A stretch of DNA of 64,000 nucleotides from Hyphomicrobiaceae bacterium (GTDB lineage: Bacteria; Pseudomonadota; Alphaproteobacteria; Rhizobiales; Hyphomicrobiaceae): NCBI GenBank assembly GCA_022842785.1, contig JALHOW010000001.1:868001-932000 (forward strand), given 5' to 3'. The notes beneath the pieces are model-generated. The model did no database searches, was not told the origin of the DNA, and worked only from the letters and a program-made list of their open reading frames with translations. Positions 9,785 through 55,903 of the stretch are shown here, in pieces. Positions within the stretch are counted from its first letter, which is position 1; each line of letters begins with the position of its first letter. The position numbers and the translations under genes are program-made.

Positions 9785-11821
9785 ATGAATGGGGGAGCAG
9801 AGCACGGCAGTGCAGTGCCGGGCGCACCTGGGGAGCACCCGCACGCCGAACGCGCGCGGCCGCGCCGATGGCGCTTGCGACTTCTCGTTCGGGGCACGGT
9901 GCTGGTCACTACCCTCGCCGCGATCCTCATCGCCACCGCGTTCGTCCGCTACACGATCCGCTTCCCTGATCCCTCGTCGCTCCGCCAACGCACGCAGGCT
10001 CCTGTCGTTCGTGTCGTGGCGCGCGACGGCGCCCTTCTCGCCGAGCGAGGCAATGCCGCGCGGCCCGTACCTCTCTCTGAGTTGCCGCCACACGTCATCC
10101 ACGCTGTGGTCGCCATCGAAGATCGGCGGTTTTTCTCGCACATCGGACTCGACTTCCGCGGCTTGGCGCGTGCCATGCTGGCGAACCTGCGCGCCGCACG
10201 CTATGCGCAGGGCGGTTCGACGCTGACGCAGCAGCTCGCCAAGAACCTCTTCCTCGCGTCCGACCGCACCATGGAGCGCAAGCTCGAAGAGGTCGTCCTC
10301 GCGCTCTGGCTGGAACTGCGCCTCGGCAAGCCCGGCATTCTCGAGCTCTATCTCAACCGCGTGTACTTCGGCGCCGGCGTCTATGGCATCGAGGCGGCGG
10401 CCCAGCGTTACTTCGCCAAGTCCGCCCGCGCGCTCAGCGTTCCCGAAGCAGCCATCATCGCGGGACTGCTCAAGGCGCCGTCACGTCTTTCGCCCGCAAG
10501 CCGTCCCGAGATGGCGGCCACCCGCGCCGTGCTCGTGCTCGCGGCCATGCGGGAGGAAGGCTTCATCAGTGAGGTCGGCTACCAGGAAGCCCTCCATCAG
10601 CAGGTCACGTACGCCGCGAGCGATACGCCACGCGAGGAGACTGGCCTCGAGTTCGCCGTGGACTATGTCCTCGATCGCCTGCCACCGCTCGCGGGGCATG
10701 GCCAATCCGCCATCACCGTCGAGACGACCATCGACGCCGATCTCCAGCGCCATGCCCAGGCGACGATCGCGCGCCGTCTCGCAGCAGCCGGCACAGCGGC
10801 CGAGAACGCGGAAGGCGCACTCGTCATCCTCGATCCGGAGGGCGGCGTACGTGCCATGGTCGGCGGGCGCGCATGGTCGCGGAGCCAGTTCAATCGCGCC
10901 GTCCGCGCCCGTCGTCAGCCAGGCTCCGCGTTCAAGCCCGCACTCTATCTGGCGGCGCTTGAAGCCGGTATCACACCCGACACGATCGTGCACGACCGGC
11001 CGATCACCATCGGCGGGTGGAGCCCGCGCAATGACAGCGGCACCCATGCGGGCGCAATGACGGTACGCCACGCACTCGCGCATTCCGTGAACACGGTGGC
11101 CGTGACCCTTCAGCGTGAGATCGGAACTGAGCGTGTCGTCGCCATGGCGCGCCGCCTCGGTATCACGAGCACGCTGCGCGCCGACGCGTCGCTCGCGCTC
11201 GGCACGTCCGAGGTTACACTGCTCGAGCTGACAGGGGCCTACGGCACGCTCGCGACGGGCGGTCATAATCTTTCACCGCACGTCATCCGCCGCGTGCGCA
11301 CGGACCGTGGCGTCGTTCTTCACGCGCGCGGAAAATCAGCACCAACGATCGCCGTTCCGACCCCGCTCGTCGGCAAGCTCAACAGCATGATGCACACGAC
11401 CCTCGTCTCGGGTACGGGTCGGCGCGCGGCTCTGCCGAACCACGTAGCCGCAGGCAAGACAGGAACGACACAAGACAATCGCGATGCGTGGTTCGTGGGC
11501 TTCACCGGTCATCTGACTGGCGGCGTGTGGATCGGTAATGACGACAACAGTCCTATGGGCGGCATCAGCGGCAGCGGACTGCCTGCGATCATCTGGCGCG
11601 ACGTGATGATGGTCGCGCACCGCGGGTTGGAACTCATGCCACTCGCGGGCGTGAGCGATCCGCCACCTGTCCCGGAGGCTCCCGTTGCTTCAACACGCGA
11701 GCCCGCACAGACGATGCCTCGTCGCCCGCTCGCGCCGATTGATCCAGCGCTGTTCATCACACCCAAGGATCCGCCTGCCTTGGACCGACGCCGTCTGGAA
11801 GCGCTGCTGAAGTCCGAGTGA
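9785..11821 (+). CDS. Class A penicillin-binding protein (PBP1A family)
   Basis: A bifunctional peptidoglycan synthase: glycosyltransferase then transpeptidase. The 678-residue protein has a basic cytoplasmic tail, one membrane helix (about residues 34-54), the GT51 domain with the catalytic Glu in AIEDRRFFSH (E112) and GGSTLTQQLAKNLF, and the transpeptidase domain with SxxK at S381 (RQPGSAFKP), an SVN motif (HSVNTVAV) and KTGTT at K558. The C-terminus is a Pro-rich tail. It is shorter than typical PBP1A because the inserted OB-type domain appears reduced. It follows pal and cpoB, so envelope division genes are grouped here. Confidence 0.93.
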   Translation: MNGGAEHGSAVPGAPGEHPHAERARPRRWRLRLLVRGTVLVTTLAAILIATAFVRYTIRFPDPSSLRQRTQAPVVRVVARDGALLAERGNAARPVPLSELPPHVIHAVVAIEDRRFFSHIGLDFRGLARAMLANLRAARYAQGGSTLTQQLAKNLFLASDRTMERKLEEVVLALWLELRLGKPGILELYLNRVYFGAGVYGIEAAAQRYFAKSARALSVPEAAIIAGLLKAPSRLSPASRPEMAATRAVLVLAAMREEGFISEVGYQEALHQQVTYAASDTPREETGLEFAVDYVLDRLPPLAGHGQSAITVETTIDADLQRHAQATIARRLAAAGTAAENAEGALVILDPEGGVRAMVGGRAWSRSQFNRAVRARRQPGSAFKPALYLAALEAGITPDTIVHDRPITIGGWSPRNDSGTHAGAMTVRHALAHSVNTVAVTLQREIGTERVVAMARRLGITSTLRADASLALGTSEVTLLELTGAYGTLATGGHNLSPHVIRRVRTDRGVVLHARGKSAPTIAVPTPLVGKLNSMMHTTLVSGTGRRAALPNHVAAGKTGTTQDNRDAWFVGFTGHLTGGVWIGNDDNSPMGGISGSGLPAIIWRDVMMVAHRGLELMPLAGVSDPPPVPEAPVASTREPAQTMPRRPLAPIDPALFITPKDPPALDRRRLEALLKSE

Positions 11822-11823
11822 GC

Positions 11824-12020
11824 TTCGCGCTCGCGCGCGAACGATGGCCAGCCCTCGCGCTCCCCCGTGCCGGAGGCGCGTCTTCGACACGACGAGGGAC
11901 ACCCTCCCTGACCCACCCGCTTTTATGAGTTAGACCTACACGCGACCTGTCCGCATCGCCGCCGCGGGCATAGCACCACCGATGAAGGCGATAGCATCCC
12001 TTCCCAGCAGCCCGCGGCAC
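11824..12020 (+). repeat. Convergent-junction repeat, copy A
   Basis: Copy A of a dispersed multi-hairpin repeat, lying between the 3' ends of the PBP gene and the acyl-CoA synthetase gene. Parts in order: GC-rich hairpin TTCGCGC/GCGCGAA (11824-11841), conserved block 1 (GAGGGACACCCTCCC ... CCCGCTTTTATGA, 11891-11930), and conserved block 2 (11942-12020) with a 9-bp stem GCCGCGGGC/GCCCGCGGC (11961-11969 with 12010-12018). Blocks 1 and 2 recur at 51.8 and 54.6 kb and block 1 at 24.1 kb. Confidence 0.85.
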
Positions 12021-12038
12021 TAAACAAGAGACCCGTCG

Positions 12039-13664
12039 CTACAGTTTCTCCGCCGTGTCGCGCAGGACAAATTTCTGGATCTTGCCCGTGGACGTCTTCG
12101 GCAGCGGACCGAACACGATGGTCCTCGGCGCCTTGTAGTGCGCCATGTTCTCGCGGCAGTAGGCGATGATCTCCTCGGCCGTAACCGTCCCGGCATCCGC
12201 CCTCAGCGTGACGAACGCACACGGCGTCTCGCCCCACTTCTCATCGGGGCGCGCGACGACGGCGGCCTCCATGACTTTCGGATGCCGGAAGAGCACTTCC
12301 TCGACCTCGAGCGACGAAATGTTCTCGCCGCCGGAGATGATGATGTCCTTCGAGCGATCCTTGACCTCGATATAGCCATCCGCATGCCAGACGGCGAGAT
12401 CGCCCGAGTGATAGTAGTCACCAGCAAACGACTCGGTTGTCGCCGACGGGTTCTTGAGATAGCCGCGCATGATCGTGTTTCCGCGCAGCATGATCTCGCC
12501 GATGGTCTCGCCATCACGCGGTACGGGTTGCATGGTCTCCGGATCGGCGACGATCATGTCTTCGATGAGCACGACCGGAAGGCCCTGACGCGCCATCAGG
12601 CGATAGCGCTCGTCTTCGCCGAAGCCCTGCCACTCGGTATAGGGCGCGCAGTAGGTCGACGGGCCGTAGCTTTCCGTCGTTCCGTAAAGATGAAGCACCT
12701 CGAAGCCCATGGCCTCCATGCGCTGGATGACGATCGCAGGGGGTGCTGCACCGCCCGTCGCCACTTTCGTGCGCACGGGAAGCGGCTTCTTCGCTGCATC
12801 CGGCGCGTGGATCAGCATGTTGAGCACGATGGGCGCGCCGCACATGTGCGTGACGCGCTCCGCCGCAATCAGCTCGAAAATGCGCTGGGGCTCGACGCGC
12901 CGCAGGCAAACGTGCGTGCCGCCCGCCGCTGTCACCGCCCAGGTATAGGTCCAGCCTGAGCAGTGGAACATCGGGAGTGTCCAGAGGTAGCGGCTCTCGT
13001 TGTCGAGCTTGAACGTCAGTGCATTGGCGAGCGCGCCGAGATAGCAGCCGCGATGGGAGAACACGACGCCCTTGGGATTGCCGGTCGTTCCCGAGGTGTA
13101 GAGCAGGCAGATCGCGTCCCACTCATCCTTCGGTCCCGAGTAGGCGAAATCGGGCTCGCCCGCGGCGATGAAGCTCTCGTACTCGATGCCGCCGAATGCC
13201 GGCGCGCCGGCCGTCTCGTCGTCCGCAATATCGATGACGATCGGCCTCTTGGTCCCCATGAGTTCGAGCGCCGGCGCGATCGTTGAATGGAACTCACGAT
13301 CGGCGAGGAAGATCTTGGCTTCGCCGTGTTCCAGGCAGAAGGCGATCGCCGCCGGATCCAGACGGATGTTGATCGGGTTCAGCACGGCGCCGATCATGGG
13401 CACGGCGTAGTGCGCTTCGAGCATGGCCGGAATATTCGGCGCGAGGATCGCCACCGTATCGCCGCGTCCGATACCCGCCTTGGTCAGCGCGTGCGCAAGC
13501 CGGCGCGAGCGCGCATAAAGATCGTGGTACGTGAAGCGGCGCGCACCGTGCACGACCGCGGTGCGCTCACCGAAGAAAGCATCCGCGCGCTTGAGGAAGC
13601 TGATCGGGCTCAACGGCACGAAGTTCGCCGTACATTTCTCGAGCTCGGGCCCGTCCACCTTCAT
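12039..13664 (-). CDS. Acyl-CoA synthetase (AMP-forming)
   Basis: An ANL-family ligase that adenylates a carboxylic acid and transfers it to CoA. Motifs: the P-loop LLYTSGTTGNPKGVVFSH, HLYGTTESYGP, YHSGDLAVWHADGYIEVKDRSKDIIISGGENIS, and the C-terminal PKTSTGKIQK containing the adenylation lysine. The segment LNPINIRLDPAAIAF is typical of the medium/short-chain group related to AlkK and DmdB, so the substrate may be a medium-chain or branched fatty acid; this cannot be settled by eye. The start at 13664 has GGAGG six bases upstream, giving 541 residues; longer upstream frames lack this. No operon partner is adjacent. Confidence 0.88.
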   Translation of the reverse strand: MKVDGPELEKCTANFVPLSPISFLKRADAFFGERTAVVHGARRFTYHDLYARSRRLAHALTKAGIGRGDTVAILAPNIPAMLEAHYAVPMIGAVLNPINIRLDPAAIAFCLEHGEAKIFLADREFHSTIAPALELMGTKRPIVIDIADDETAGAPAFGGIEYESFIAAGEPDFAYSGPKDEWDAICLLYTSGTTGNPKGVVFSHRGCYLGALANALTFKLDNESRYLWTLPMFHCSGWTYTWAVTAAGGTHVCLRRVEPQRIFELIAAERVTHMCGAPIVLNMLIHAPDAAKKPLPVRTKVATGGAAPPAIVIQRMEAMGFEVLHLYGTTESYGPSTYCAPYTEWQGFGEDERYRLMARQGLPVVLIEDMIVADPETMQPVPRDGETIGEIMLRGNTIMRGYLKNPSATTESFAGDYYHSGDLAVWHADGYIEVKDRSKDIIISGGENISSLEVEEVLFRHPKVMEAAVVARPDEKWGETPCAFVTLRADAGTVTAEEIIAYCRENMAHYKAPRTIVFGPLPKTSTGKIQKFVLRDTAEKL

Positions 13665-24030: not shown

Positions 24031-24033
24031 TAG

Positions 24034-24137
24034 CCGCGCCTTCGGCGCGAGCGAGGCTTGCCTCGCGCTCCCAAATTCTTGTGGCGCGCCTTCGGCGCGA
24101 CGAGGGACACCCTCCCTGACGCACCCGCTTTTATTGA
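24034..24137 (+). repeat. Convergent-junction repeat, copy B (truncated)
   Basis: Copy B starts 4 bp after murJ. It has two copies of the GCGCC-TTC-GGCGC hairpin, a GAGCGAGGC/GCCTCGCGCTC hairpin, and conserved block 1 (24099-24133), but lacks block 2 with the GCCGCGGGC stem found in the other copies. The sequence after block 1 switches to a different palindromic element. Confidence 0.75.
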
Positions 24138-24165
24138 CGAAGTACTCTCGGCGAACTCCACTTCC

Positions 24166-24279
24166 CCTTCTCCCCGTTTTACACGGGGAGAAGGTTGGGG
24201 TGAGGGGCGGCAACTAGCGCAACGTTTGTGTATGCCGCCGCCCCTCACCCTAGCCCTCTCCCCGCGCGCGGGGAGAGGG
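24166..24279. repeat. Composite three-hairpin REP-like element
   Basis: Three nested hairpins form one large inverted repeat: CCTTCTCCCCG/CGGGGAGAAGG (24166-24176 with 24184-24194), GGGTGAGGGGCGGC/GCCGCCCCTCACCC (24198-24211 with 24237-24250), and a perfect 26-bp palindrome at 24254-24279 (CCCTCTCCCCGCG and its complement). The outer two hairpins are near-copies of each other. Elements of this composition are common in intergenic DNA of Proteobacteria. Here it probably also ends transcription from murJ and from the opposing dehydrogenase gene. Confidence 0.75.
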
Positions 24280-24334
24280 GATGATAGAGCGCGAGGCGGC
24301 AGCCTCGCTCGCGCAGCGACCAACCGAGCCGCAG

Positions 24335-25738
24335 CTAACCCGCCGGCAAGATCTTCCCGGGATTGAGGATGTTCTCGGGATCGAGCGCCTGCTTGATCGC
24401 GCGCATGGTGGCAAGCGCAGGGCCGTGCTCGGCCTTGAGGTATTTCATCTTGCCCTGGCCGACACCATGCTCGCCCGTGCAGGTGCCCTCCATGGCGATG
24501 GCGCGCTTTGCCATCTTCTCGATCAGCAGCTCGGCGGCCGCGATCTCCTTGGGATTGGACATGTCCACCATGGGCATGGTGTGGAAGTTGCCGTCACCGA
24601 CATGCCCGACGATCGGCGCACTGAGACCCGAGGCGCGAATGTCCTCCATGGTTTCGGCGAGGCATTCGGCGAGACGCGAGATCGGCACGCACACATCCGT
24701 CGCGATGGCTTCGCGGCCCGGATGGGCGGTCTTCACGGACCAGTAGCTCTCGTGACGTGCTTTCCATAGTCGGCGGCGGTCCTCTTCCTTCTCGGCCCAG
24801 TCGAAACCGATGGCACCTTCGCCGCGCGCGATCTCCTCGAAGATGCGCACCTGATCCCGCGTACCGGCTTCAGTGCCGTGGAACTCGAGAAAGAGCATCG
24901 GCTTCACGGGTAGATTGAGCTTGGCCTGCTCATTGAGAACACGCACGTTGGCTTCGTCGATGAATTCCATGCGCGCGAGGCCGAGGCCAAGCTGAATGGC
25001 CATGATGACGGAATTGCACGCGCCTTCGACGCTCTCGAAGGGGCAGACCGCAGAGAGAATGCTCTCAGGGATGCCATAGAGCTTGACCGTCACTTCGGTC
25101 ATGATGCCGAGCGTACCTTCCGAGCCGACGAGCAGCTTGGTGAGGTCATAGCCGGCCGAGGATTTGCGCGCGCGCCGGGCCGTGCGGATGACGGAACCGT
25201 CGGCCATGACTGCCGTCACGTTGAGCACATTCTCGCGCATGGTGCCGTAGCGGACGGCGGTCGTGCCGGAAGCCCGTGTCGCGCTCATGCCGCCAATCGT
25301 GGCTTCCTCCGCTCCGGGATCGACCGGGAAGAACAGGCCCATATCGCGCAGATGATCGTTGAGCTGCTTGCGCGAGACGCCCGCTTCGACGGTCGCATCA
25401 AGATCGCGATCATTGACCACGAGAATGCGGTTCATGCGCGAGAAGTCGAGCGAGATGCCCCCCCGCGGCGCATTCAGATGCCCTTCGAGCGAGGTGCCAG
25501 CGCCGAATGGGATGATCGGCACGCGATGCGTGCCCGCGATACGCACGACCTCCTGCACTTCCTCCGTATTGTCCGGCCACACAACGGCGTCGGGCGGCTG
25601 GTTCGGCAACCAGGTGAGGGTGTGGGCGTGCTGGCGGCGCACGGCCTCGCCTGTCTGGAAGCGCTCGCCGAAGCGCTGGCGGAGAATGGCAAGCGCAGTC
25701 GCAACATCGGCGGTGCCGGGAGACAGGGTCTCGGACAT
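24335..25738 (-). CDS. FAD-linked D-lactate/glycolate-type dehydrogenase
   Basis: A VAO-family flavoenzyme of the Dld/GlcD type that oxidises a 2-hydroxyacid and passes electrons to the respiratory chain. The FAD-binding domain has PFGAGTSLEGH, VEAGVSRKQLNDHL and the GGMSATRASGTTAVRYGTMRENVL pyrophosphate loop; the C-terminal substrate domain ends with GHVGDGNFHTMPMVD (metal-type His residues), EGTCTGEHGVGQGK and DPENILNPGKILP. At 467 residues it is a single-polypeptide D-lactate dehydrogenase (cytochrome) by length; glycolate or D-2-hydroxyglutarate are alternative substrates. No partner glcE or glcF genes are adjacent. Confidence 0.85.
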   Translation of the reverse strand: MSETLSPGTADVATALAILRQRFGERFQTGEAVRRQHAHTLTWLPNQPPDAVVWPDNTEEVQEVVRIAGTHRVPIIPFGAGTSLEGHLNAPRGGISLDFSRMNRILVVNDRDLDATVEAGVSRKQLNDHLRDMGLFFPVDPGAEEATIGGMSATRASGTTAVRYGTMRENVLNVTAVMADGSVIRTARRARKSSAGYDLTKLLVGSEGTLGIMTEVTVKLYGIPESILSAVCPFESVEGACNSVIMAIQLGLGLARMEFIDEANVRVLNEQAKLNLPVKPMLFLEFHGTEAGTRDQVRIFEEIARGEGAIGFDWAEKEEDRRRLWKARHESYWSVKTAHPGREAIATDVCVPISRLAECLAETMEDIRASGLSAPIVGHVGDGNFHTMPMVDMSNPKEIAAAELLIEKMAKRAIAMEGTCTGEHGVGQGKMKYLKAEHGPALATMRAIKQALDPENILNPGKILPAG

Positions 25739-51769: not shown

Positions 51770-51964
51770 TTCGCGCCTTCGGCTTTGCTTACTTGCCGCG
51801 GGCTGCTGGGAAGGGGTGCTTTCGCATCCCGACGTGGTGCTATGCCCGCGCCCGCCATACCGATAGCTTGCGTCTGGCCGAAGTCATAAAGGCGGGTGGG
51901 TCCGGGAGGGTGTCCCTCCCGGTGGAGCCGCGAGGCCTAGCCTCGCTCGCGCCGTAGGCGCGAA
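51770..51964 (-). repeat. Convergent-junction repeat, copy C (reverse orientation)
   Basis: Copy C fills the gap between maoC and accA in the opposite orientation. Block 2 with GCCGCGGGC (51795-51803) paired to GCCCGCG (51844-51850), the block 1 hairpin as a perfect 9-bp stem CCGGGAGGG/CCCTCCCGG (51902-51910 with 51914-51922), and the outer hairpin GCGAGGC/GCCTCGC (51930-51946) are all present. It is the best-preserved copy of block 1. Confidence 0.85.
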
Positions 51965-52918
51965 CTACAGCGAGCGACCGATATTCAAGAACCGCTCGTG
52001 CCGCTGCTTGCGAACTTCGTCCGGCGACATCTTGTCGAATGCGGCGAGTGCCTTCGCGATGGCATCACCGGCGCGTCGTACCGCACCTTCCTTGTCGCGA
52101 TGCGCACCACCGACGGGCTCGGCAACAATCTCGTCGATCACACCAAGCTCGTGCAGATCCTGCGCCGTGATCTTCATGCTCGTCGCGGCATCGACGGCAC
52201 GCGTCGAGTCGCGCCACAGGATCGAGGCTGCAGCTTCCGGCGACGCCACGGTGTAGACGGCGTGCTCGAGCATGAGAATACGGTTGGCGCTCGCAATGGC
52301 GATCGCGCCGCCCGAACCGCCTTCCCCGATCACGACGGCGATCATGGGCACGCCGAGCGAGAGGCAACGGTCCGTCGAACGCGCGATGGCCTCCGCCTGT
52401 CCGCGCTCCTCGGCGCCGACGCCGGGATAGGCCCCGGCGGTATCGACGAGCGTAACGACCGGGAGCGCGAAACGCTCGGCCATGTCCATCAGTCGCACGG
52501 CCTTGCGATAGCCCTCGGGACGCGCCATGCCGAAGTTGTGTTTTATGCGCGTCTCGGTGTCATGGCCCTTCTCGTGCCCGATCACCATCACGGAGCGCCC
52601 GCGGAACTTCCCGATACCGCCGGTGATGGCGGCGTCCTCCGAGAAGTAGCGATCGCCGGCCAGCGGCGTGAAGCTCTCGATGAGCTGCTCGATGTAGTCG
52701 AGGCAGTGCGGCCGGTCGGGATGGCGCGCGACCGTGGTCTTCTGCCAGGGATTGAGCCCACCGTAGGTCTCGACGAGGAGCTGCGCGGCGCGGCCCTCGA
52801 GCTTGCTGATCTCCTCGCCGATCGCGGTACTCTCGTCGTCCTGGGTCAGCGCGCGCAGTTCCGCGACCCGGCTCTCCAGCTCGGCAATCGGCTTCTCGAA
52901 GTCCAGATATGTGGCCAT
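51965..52918 (-). CDS. accA: Acetyl-CoA carboxylase carboxyltransferase, alpha subunit
   Basis: AccA with AccD transfers carboxyl from carboxybiotin to acetyl-CoA, giving malonyl-CoA for fatty acid synthesis. The 317-residue chain has MATYLDFEKPIAELESRVAELRAL at the start, HPDRPHCLDYIEQLIESF, GIGKFRGRSVMVIGHEKGHDT, PVVTLVDTAGAYPGVGAEERGQAEAI and VIGEGGSGGAIAIA (oxyanion and CoA-binding glycines). The ATG at 52918 is preceded by a longer frame without support. Divergent from crcB. Confidence 0.97.
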   Translation of the reverse strand: MATYLDFEKPIAELESRVAELRALTQDDESTAIGEEISKLEGRAAQLLVETYGGLNPWQKTTVARHPDRPHCLDYIEQLIESFTPLAGDRYFSEDAAITGGIGKFRGRSVMVIGHEKGHDTETRIKHNFGMARPEGYRKAVRLMDMAERFALPVVTLVDTAGAYPGVGAEERGQAEAIARSTDRCLSLGVPMIAVVIGEGGSGGAIAIASANRILMLEHAVYTVASPEAAASILWRDSTRAVDAATSMKITAQDLHELGVIDEIVAEPVGGAHRDKEGAVRRAGDAIAKALAAFDKMSPDEVRKQRHERFLNIGRSL

Positions 52919-54542: not shown

Positions 54543-54716
54543 GCATTCGCGCTTTCAGCGCGAGCAGGGCCGCAGGCCCTGCGACCCGCGCGGGGGACAC
54601 CCTCGCACCCCCGTCTTTTATGACTTTGGAGTTCCGGGCGACCTGTCCGCATCTCGGCCGCGGGCATAGCACCACCATTGAGTGCGACAGCACCGCTTCC
54701 CAGCAGCCCGCGGCAC
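54543..54716 (+). repeat. Convergent-junction repeat, copy D
   Basis: Copy D lies between the pseudouridine synthase and the CoA-transferase, both ending toward it. It has outer hairpins (GCAGGGCC/GGCCCTGC), a degraded block 1, and a well-kept block 2 with the 9-bp stem GCCGCGGGC/GCCCGCGGC (54657-54665 with 54706-54714). Sequence matches copy A closely in block 2 (ACCTGTCCGCATC, CATAGCACCACC, CTTCCCAGCAG). Confidence 0.85.
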
Positions 54717-54778
54717 TTAAGTTAAGCCGTCCCTCCCGGTTGGGGCGTGGGGCGAAAGTCCCACTCGCGAAGCGACGG

Positions 54779-55903
54779 CTACCCCAAAAACTCCTCGCGC
54801 ACCGCACGCGTATTCGCGCCCAACACAGGAACCGTATCGCTCGTGAGAAGCGCCTCGCCCATCCACTGCGCGGGCGGCACGGGCATTTTGACGGCGCCGA
54901 CTTCGGTCGTCACGGGCATCATGCGCAGATGCGGATGCTTGTGCAGTCCAAACACATCATTCACGCGACCGAAGGCGATGTCCGCCGCGTCGAGCTTCGC
55001 GATTGCCGGCTCCGCGTCTTGAGCTGCGAACCATGCAGCGACGAGGCCATCGGTATCGTCCCGGTTCGCGACACGTGCCGGCGAAGTCGCAAAGCGCGGA
55101 TCGCTTCCGCATTCCGGGCGCTCGAAGACTTTCATGCAGAGCGCGCGCCACTCGCGGTCGTTCTGGATGCTGATGAGGATCGGGATGCCGTCGCGCGTCG
55201 TGAAGACGCCATAGGGCGCGAGCGAGATGTGCGAGAGGCCAATGCGGCGCGGGGGCGCGCCGTAAATGCCCTGCATCAGCGGCACGCTCATCAGCTCGGC
55301 CATCGTATCGAACATGGAGACGCGGATGTCGGCGCCCTTGCCCGTTGTCGCGCGACGCAGCAATGCCTCGAGAATGGCTTCGTAGGCGTGGAGCCCCGTG
55401 GAGACATCGACGATCGAGACACCGACGCGCGCGGGCTCGGCGGCACTGCCAGTCACCGAAGCCAAGCCGGACTCTGCTTGAATGAGGAGGTCATAGGCCT
55501 TGCGATCGGCGTAGGGCCCAGTGTCGCCGTAGCCCGAAATCGAGCAGGCGACGAGCCGCGGATGGCGCGCGCAGATTTCCTCGACGGGATAGCCGAGCTT
55601 GGTCAGCGCGCCGGGCTTCAGGTTCTGCACGAAGACGTCGGCTTTCGCGAGTAGCGCCTCGAAGAGTGCGCGATCCTCGGCCTTGCCGAGATCGACGACG
55701 ACCGACTCTTTCCCGCGATTGAGCCAGATGAAGTAGACGCTCTGCCCCTCGGCGAGCTGGTCATAGCCGCGCGCGAAATCGCCCTCGGGACGTTCGATCT
55801 TGATGACGCGCGCGCCGGCGTCGGCAAGGCGACGTCCAGTCATGGGTGCGGCGACGGCCTGCTCGAGAGAGACGACGAGAATGCCTTCCAGGGGCTTCTG
55901 CAT
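54779..55903 (-). CDS. Family III CoA-transferase (CaiB/BaiF type)
   Basis: A 374-residue CoA-transferase that moves CoA between carboxylates through an Asp-anhydride mechanism. Conserved parts: MQKPLEGILVVSLEQAVAAPMTGRRLADAGARVIKIERPEGD, the FIWLNRGKESVVVDL region, SGYGDTGPYADRKAYDLLIQAESGL (with the catalytic Asp), and TGLHAYEAILEALLRRATTGKGADIRVSMFD. The exact acid pair is not predictable; citramalate, formyl, succinyl and others occur. ATG at 55903 is chosen over an upstream one. Confidence 0.85.
   Translation of the reverse strand: MQKPLEGILVVSLEQAVAAPMTGRRLADAGARVIKIERPEGDFARGYDQLAEGQSVYFIWLNRGKESVVVDLGKAEDRALFEALLAKADVFVQNLKPGALTKLGYPVEEICARHPRLVACSISGYGDTGPYADRKAYDLLIQAESGLASVTGSAAEPARVGVSIVDVSTGLHAYEAILEALLRRATTGKGADIRVSMFDTMAELMSVPLMQGIYGAPPRRIGLSHISLAPYGVFTTRDGIPILISIQNDREWRALCMKVFERPECGSDPRFATSPARVANRDDTDGLVAAWFAAQDAEPAIAKLDAADIAFGRVNDVFGLHKHPHLRMMPVTTEVGAVKMPVPPAQWMGEALLTSDTVPVLGANTRAVREEFLG

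Follow-up and report, generated by a model that had tools for sequence, protein, structure and literature searches.

A BIME-like mosaic family of palindromic repeats with asymmetric stop-codon docking at gene 3' ends in a relative of Hyphomicrobium

Four composite repeats between facing genes

The window, by which we mean the whole 64,000-nucleotide stretch of DNA that was analysed, lies in contig C1 of a 4.98 Mb genome (27 contigs) and carries four copies (A to D) of a repeat set between the 3' ends of facing genes. The four copies listed in the initial annotation are borne out by their sequences and by alignment, which places the first of its two conserved blocks in A, B, C and D and the second in A, C and D only, and shows copy C to be inverted relative to the other window copies. 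The repeat family is a mosaic of three separable modules, X1, M2 and an optional R3. X1 (∼83 bp) comprises three hairpins, a C-rich stretch and a T-run: H1 is of the type TCGCGCC-TTCG-GGCGCGA, H2 of the type GCGAGGC-TA-GCCTCGC and H3 of the type CCGGGAGGG-ACA-CCCTCCCGG, after which come the C-rich stretch and TTTTATGA. M2 (∼82 bp), the second block of the initial annotation, has inverted ends of 9 bp, and R3 is a CTTCTCCCCG...GGGGAGAAGG repeat of about 125–170 bp found in copy B. X1 and M2 also occur on their own, apart from each other, and R3 stands between X1 and M2 in several junctions of a related genome, G002. Copies A, C and D consist of X1 and M2; copy B had been described as having the first block without the second, which is correct, but beyond that block it also holds R3 and then a truncated X1 on the opposite strand. 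The features are as follows, in window coordinates, with E values from cmsearch with the covariance models R1 (M2) and R2 (X1).

Copy A, 11824–11931, + strand: X1, with H1, H2, a linker variant, H3, the C-rich stretch and TTTTATGA (R2, E 1.4e-10)
Copy A, 11945–12026, + strand: M2, GCCGCGGGC...GCCCGCGGC plus flanks (R1, E 8.6e-22)
Copy B, 24033–24139, + strand: X1 (R2, E 4.9e-10)
Copy B, 24156–24280, + strand: R3, the CTTCTCCCCG... repeat (BLAST query stretch; the true element is somewhat longer)
Copy B, 24269–24320, − strand: truncated X1, H1 and H2 (hairpins by eye; R2 11.8 bits, E 0.23, not significant alone)
Copy C, 51770–51783, + strand: H1 stump, TTCGCGCCTTCGGC (by eye)
Copy C, 51787–51868, − strand: M2 (R1, E 2.2e-18)
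Copy C, 51881–51964, − strand: X1, starting at the stop codon of the gene on this strand that ends at 51965 (R2, E 3.9e-27)
Copy D, 54546–54626, + strand: X1 (R2, E 3.8e-17)
Copy D, 54641–54722, + strand: M2 (R1, E 1.7e-20)
Copy D, 54715–54776, − strand: truncated X1, H1, H2 and part of H3 (by eye; R2 10 bits, E 0.73, not significant alone)

The gene to the left of copy A ends at 11821, and X1 has its 5' end 2 nt past that stop; the facing gene ends at 12039, its stop 12 nt from the 3' end of M2. The truncated X1 of copy B belongs to the facing gene ending at 24335, its weak match overlapping the end of R3, and that of copy D adjoins M2 and belongs to the facing gene ending at 54779. The H1 stump of copy C, between the plus-strand stop and the end of M2, reads as the remnant of an older X1, and in G002 a whole X1 is found where copy C has the stump.

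R1 was built from 30 sequences and R2 from 13, taken from copies in this genome. Within the window R2 detects four copies of X1 with E values from 3.9e-27 to 4.9e-10, the next match lying at E=0.23, and R1 detects three copies of M2 at E ≤ 2.2e-18 with nothing else up to E=1. The window copies are partly among the model-building sequences, and those match by construction; the independent check against chance is provided by further copies elsewhere in the genome. By our own gene calls the window has six convergent gaps, of which the four occupied ones measure 217, 304, 198 and 236 bp and the other two, of 13 and 26 bp, are empty, as expected from the earlier description of copies at every long convergent junction in the window.

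Hairpin structure and placement at gene 3' ends

Compensatory changes are found in X1, while M2 is mostly conserved by sequence. Over 68 aligned copies of X1, 96.6% of cells are paired and double-sided changes occur in 15 of the 22 pairs, spread over all three helices; the alignment was fitted to the structural model, which favours structure, and against this background double-change cells number 161 compared with 37 in shuffles (0/500 shuffles as high), while slid controls collapse. Of the 11 pairs predicted for M2, only two show double changes. The mispairs of X1 (13 G-U against 28 A-C, some outer H3 pairs possibly being misaligned) are not tilted to G-U on the would-be transcribed strand, which argues against selection on the sense-strand RNA; the X1 strand is thus not singled out as a folding RNA, and DNA palindromes or a role of the opposite strand would agree with these counts at least equally well.

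An intrinsic terminator consists of a GC hairpin and a T-run. X1 resembles such terminators in having a GC hairpin, a T-run on one strand and a position directly behind stop codons, and differs from them in that the T-run starts ∼6–12 nt past the hairpin instead of directly behind it. In addition, none is called inside C or D: a simple scan of these two copies for a stem-loop with a T-rich tract within 0–2 nt gave no site inside either, the sole terminator-like site (against 1.8 expected in shuffles) being in the coding end of the gene to the right of D. The bidirectional terminator proposed in the initial annotation is not borne out by these features: the T-run is confined to one strand and the two sides are two different modules, with no symmetric structure. 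The distal C-rich arm could pair with the 5' arm of H3 beside the T-run, which would make X1 a bistable terminator with competing arms. Among copies of at least 40 bits (93/101) the competing arm fits its own copy better than shuffled arms within the genus (0/500 shuffles, 81/93 copies parsed); in other genera the figure is 99/500 shuffles (28/30 parsed), and the idea is unsupported there.

A search of the whole genome at E ≤ 0.001 returned at least 127 X1 and at least 83 M2 matches, both lower bounds because 150 of 4846 (X1) and 150 of 4100 (M2) first-look candidates were scored; 28 of 30 locally found M2 are also among the whole-genome matches. M2 also forms head-to-tail arrays of two or three units with ∼80–87 bp spacing, for example at C10 126777–127021, C1 945110–945275 and C8 90302–90456 of the window's genome (G000). 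Placement was analysed in 1.1 Mb of this genome (C1 327331–1027330 and C3 1–400000), a sample taken around the window and from another contig and hence not random. Genes were called by an in-house script whose calls cover 80–84% of the sequence; genes may have been overlooked in some of the gaps, and a few of the short calls are perhaps spurious. The tolerance between element and junction was 45 nt in the placement and docking counts, and 20 nt in an earlier placement run.

In this sample 59 X1 and 30 M2 (E ≤ 0.01) fall in 54 of 931 junctions. Of these 89 copies 48 lie in convergent gaps, 40 in codirectional gaps, one in a divergent gap and none outside junctions, a distribution far from copies lying mostly inside genes or at random junctions and in keeping with the earlier suggestion of a REP-like interspersed repeat that settles at 3' ends. 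Counted by junction, the occupied gaps are 31/155 convergent, 22/621 codirectional and 1/155 divergent; the corresponding values are 16/94, 11/335 and 1/93 in 600 kb of G002, and 6/32, 4/118 and 0/31 in 200 kb of a further relative, G004. The convergent bias is strong, yet not exclusive. X1 or M2 occupies 25/47 convergent gaps of at least 120 bp in our genome, 14/28 in G002 and 5/14 in G004, with R3 alone adding 0, 3 and 1 occupied gaps, respectively. The initial annotation's rule that every long convergent junction is occupied thus holds within the window but not genome-wide, given these 25/47 gaps and the 40/89 codirectional copies, and the window is a rich sample. Where X1 lies in a codirectional gap it is sense in 14 and antisense in 10 cases in our genome, and 7 and 8 in G002 and G004 combined; with the antisense orientation, not all copies can serve an upstream gene.

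The position of the modules within their gaps is asymmetric. Of the 59 X1 copies of our genome, 30 have their 5' end −6 to 12 nt from a stop codon on their own strand (random mean 6.5, maximum 17), as do 23 of the 42 in G002 and G004 together (random mean 5.4, maximum 12). In M2 it is the 3' end that docks: 16 of the 30 copies of our genome have it −6 to 16 nt from a facing stop (random mean 4.8, maximum 10), and so do 9 of 16 in the two relatives (random mean 2.0, maximum 5). The opposite ends are undocked, with counts in our genome of 7 against 8.0 at random for the 3' end of X1 and 1 against 4.2 for the 5' end of M2. The random control placed elements at uniform position and strand within the same gaps (2000 trials), and the docking ranges were set after the first distances were known, part of both samples included, so that these counts are not blind. 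With X1 starting at the same-strand stop and M2 ending at the facing stop, an X1-M2 composite fits from stop to stop, and it is mainly this asymmetric docking that leads us to see the modules as 3'-end parts and not as mere gap-filling repeats.

The tail of X1 supplies the stop codon of a neighbouring gene in 7/101 copies, all at one offset. Read on the reverse complement, the codon is TAA in six and TAG in one; the gene so served is the facing one, except in a single copy where it is the upstream member of a codirectional pair. Examples lie at C1 offsets 245310, 260457 and 650268 of our genome (joined sample). At C1 offset 527679 an X1 occupies the same place and orientation in our genome, G002 and G004; it lies 93–111 nt past the left gene, ends at the facing stop and has an ortholog rank against G002 of only 26/29.

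Much of this placement would also be found if the modules were selfish miniature elements, functionless and landing anywhere, that survive where they do least harm, between 3' ends: none lies outside junctions and a single copy in a divergent (promoter) gap in 1.1 Mb, codirectional gaps contain antisense copies, and M2 forms tandem arrays. Random landing within gaps would, however, give no defined end at the stop codon, nor does it sit well with occupancy being kept across species while the arrangement turns over (see below), and we regard this explanation as doubtful, if worth keeping in mind.

Occurrence in relatives and turnover of arrangement

The family is lineage-specific, and its host is a soil bacterium related to Hyphomicrobium. 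M2 is found, with stricter filters, in 4/103 genomes of the bacterial family (our own included), all of them in the window's genus and none in the other 24 genera tested, and in 4/60 genomes in a search of family and order; its carriers are our genome, G002, G003 and G004, and it is absent from G001 (87% complete). X1 reaches further, to 15/40 genomes (our own included, E ≤ 1e-6) and 11/36 genera, patchily within the family and once outside it, and R3 gives BLAST matches in 33/60 genomes (our own included) and 25/49 genera, six of these genomes belonging to other families of the order. The exact M2 core recurs in 17 stretches of named genomes, a count that may omit the window's own genome, of which 14 are in Hyphomicrobium sp. 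CS1BSMeth3, taken to be G002, and one (L092) is probably G003 itself. A metagenome-assembled genome (MAG) labelled Verrucomicrobia holds a true M2 without X1 (L090, 865–946, 93 bits), which may reflect misbinning or transfer and which counts against a strict restriction to the genus; the core match in a MAG labelled Rubripirellula (L093) is a chance one, as this locus holds no M2.

The layout of X1 is kept in 30 copies from eight other genera, several with longer T-runs. Five of these copies are convergent, 14 codirectional, one divergent and 10 of indeterminate context, and where the distance could be measured, in 15 copies, 10 begin 0–26 nt past a same-strand stop, the context being weak here as the gene caller was trained on the window's genus. 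For R3, one copy in G002 (L242, C2 ∼1427739–1428095) is split by a DUF559 gene (PF04480, E 3.1e-30; a restriction-endonuclease-like family scores just under cut-off) with R3 motifs on both sides. This is the sole such gene in 1.9 Mb and the other loci examined, and the locus could be a mobile endonuclease element of which R3 is the short form.

Comparison of orthologous junctions shows occupancy to be largely shared. Between our genome and G002, 58 orthologous convergent junctions divide into 13 occupied in both, two in ours only, one in G002 only and 42 in neither (Fisher p 4.5e-10), and for our convergent gaps of at least 100 bp the corresponding counts are 13, 1, 0 and 6 (Fisher p 1.8e-4). 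For codirectional junctions they are 6, 2, 3 and 211, and for divergent ones 1, 0, 0 and 58; against G004, convergent junctions give 4, 0, 0 and 12. The occupants are less constant, with the same arrangement at five of the 13 junctions shared with G002 and an inverted or changed one at eight (joined C1 sample coordinates):

Same arrangement (5): 245310, 260457, 436381, 527679 and 595212 (= D)
Inverted arrangement (2): 552491 (= A) and 592436 (= C)
Changed arrangement (6): 193372, 221562, 450114, 454349, 564700 (= B) and 621231

Such persistence of occupancy raises the alternative that the copies are vertically inherited, functional terminators whose likeness reflects shared constraint, infrequent gene conversion and a local inversion now and then, and not mobility. 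The ortholog ranks, for which copies >40 bits were compared (X1, 53/59 in our genome and 29/31 in G002), fall on both sides of the question. Where each side has one X1 in the same orientation they are 2, 2, 5, 7, 26 and 22 of 29, and in two-X1 junctions the same-orientation pairs rank 3, 4, 10, 1, 6, 13, 5, 1 and 27 as against 16, 20, 15, 19, 12, 25, 21, 6 and 27 for crossed pairs; the same-orientation values count in favour of vertical descent, as does the kept pairing of the hairpins. Inverted single X1 pairs rank 3, 27, 26, 21 and 12 of 29, mostly unlike orthologs, and so mostly look like replacements; the inverted X1 pair at 621231 ranks 14. Among M2 pairs the ranks out of 13 are 2, 10, 12, 3, 12 and 1 for the same orientation and 7, 10, 12, 4 and 3 for inverted pairs; the 4 belongs to A and the 3 to C, which is a point for vertical descent and leaves room for local inversion at these two junctions. 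In-place inversion at A and C is nonetheless not favoured by the sequences, given the ranks of inverted X1 and the H1 stump that C has besides its complete X1. Vertical inheritance is further opposed by the differing arrangement at 8/13 shared junctions, by the restriction of M2 to a single genus of 25 with X1 remnants adjoining some M2, and by the conservation of M2 through sequence more than paired change (2/11 pairs). The strongly shared occupancy (13/2/1/42) speaks for inherited terminators, which in our view are nonetheless an unlikely account of the family.

The H1 stumps and truncated X1 beside some M2 suggest that M2 and R3 arrived on top of older X1. Mean identities of X1 are 0.706 within our genome, 0.696 within G002 and 0.699 between them, and those of M2 are 0.757, 0.746 and 0.750; with identity within genomes close to that between them, there is no sign of a recent burst. 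Nor do these equal identities support the idea that the modules have been homogenised across the lineage. Clean empty sites are few, the clearest being junction D in G001, where the flanking matches are 52 bp apart as compared with 273 here and the genes end close together. In G003, junction D holds X1-like and R3-like sequence and junction B R3-like and X1-like pieces, both by eye; junction C is taken up by ∼580 bp of different sequence in G001, and in G003 each of its flanks continues into sequence that is likewise different. For A and B in G001, and for A in G003, flanks are absent or lie on separate contigs.

Proposed role and comparison with known families

The observations describe a real, large, BIME-like mosaic family with asymmetric stop-codon docking. 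The reading we consider probable is that these are BIME-like mosaic repeats in which each module docks by a fixed end at a stop codon and gives the adjoining gene a structured 3' end. X1 comes after the stop codon of the same-strand gene and the reverse complement of M2 after that of the gene on the opposite strand, so that a convergent gap is filled from stop to stop by an X1-M2 composite or by two opposed X1. In RNA the hairpins would form a barrier at the 3' end of one facing gene's transcript or of both, by terminating or pausing transcription or by shielding the transcript from 3'-5' decay. New copies would be made by copying or conversion, the machinery acting in trans, and may be tolerated or selected at 3' ends, where a barrier is gained and little is broken.

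Were this so, bacterial 3' ends would be furnished with mobile structured ends, the occupancy of a junction being kept while its occupant is swapped, and the genus would offer a natural system in which to take up the old open question of whether REP/BIME repeats are passengers that the host tolerates or have been recruited as terminators and as barriers to decay. The natural swaps at orthologous junctions, X1 for M2 and in both orientations, form a set for transcript mapping. A bolder version, which we put forward tentatively and think rather unlikely as it stands, makes gene 3' ends a landing site set aside for exchangeable end cassettes: some process would repeatedly set X1, M2 or R3 exactly behind stops in either strand sense, the same junction would be re-occupied independently in each species, and the cassette would give the gene its terminator and sometimes its stop codon.

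Two explanations borrowed from known mobile elements fare less well than structured gene ends carried by mosaic repeats. It is improbable that these genomes carry an intact insertion sequence of which M2 is the MITE: its 9-bp inverted ends and sequence-conserved inner arms would suit a MITE, but 1.9 Mb contain just two lone M2 arms, in different genomes, so that no arm pair there flanks a transposase-sized gap, and inspection by eye for target duplications noted none. REP elements of the classical kind, moved by a RAYT (Y1_Tnp) transposase, share the intergenic palindromes in mosaic and dimer arrangements, and are nevertheless a very improbable source, as the RAYT domain (PF01797) is found in 0/5 genomes of the genus, our own included (the control being positive in 5/14 known genomes), and the GTAG tag occurs near the start of X1 in 7/101 copies, with 0/46 M2 copies carrying it within their first 20 nt.

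The initial annotation did not recognise the element as a named family, and within our searches (Rfam, the Br-REP1 core and REP features) this holds. Rfam 15 gave no match at gathering score in the window, and at permissive E copies A and C alone gave only weak matches (E 0.45–2.7). The Br-REP1 core CCGGAATCTCGAGATTCCGG has no match in the window at up to three mismatches. Among the papers listed from the literature searched, whose coverage leaves out most subscription journals, none appears to concern X1, M2 or R3.

CGTC is present in the tail of 51/101 X1 and in the first 20 nt of 3/46 M2. By eye, the X1 stems do not follow the CGTC REP layout, for which the available text of PMC3733652 gives the tag on an 8–9 bp stem whose first two pairs are AT, a loop of 4–5 and a CCA tail, a comparison of layout and not of the published consensus letters. 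According to the same text REPs and BIMEs are found mainly between codirectional (unidirectional) and convergent genes, and X1 and M2 are like BIMEs and GTAG/CGTC REPs as described there in being small intergenic palindromes that form dimers and mosaics (PMC3733652). They are unlike them, as far as that description goes, in having no GTAG beyond a few copies, no RAYT, and units of 80–200 bp with several hairpins. The separable palindromic modules are intergenic, vary in order and orientation and also occur alone, as in BIME mosaics. By definition, BIMEs are built from REP units, and here GTAG is present in few copies only.

The MIRU of mycobacteria lie between codirectional genes, have ends that coincide with stop codons and are not known to be hairpin arrays. 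X1 and M2 likewise have one end at stop codons and differ from MIRU in being hairpin arrays. Br-REP1 of Bradyrhizobium, in the portion of PMC5082802 available, consists of three palindromes in the overlapping 3' UTRs of two convergent genes, which occur singly or jointly and vary strongly in abundance among related species, and Br-REP2 is likewise found in intergenic regions (PMC5082802). The multi-palindrome layout at convergent 3' ends is shared with Br-REP1 (PMC5082802), the sequences being unrelated as far as the Br-REP1 core was compared and Br-REP2 being compared by its description only. What sets the present family apart from Br-REP1 and Br-REP2, as they are described in that portion, is that two asymmetric modules dock on opposite stops, sometimes with a third module between them. 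The family is a new, lineage-specific cousin of the bacterial REP/BIME repeats.
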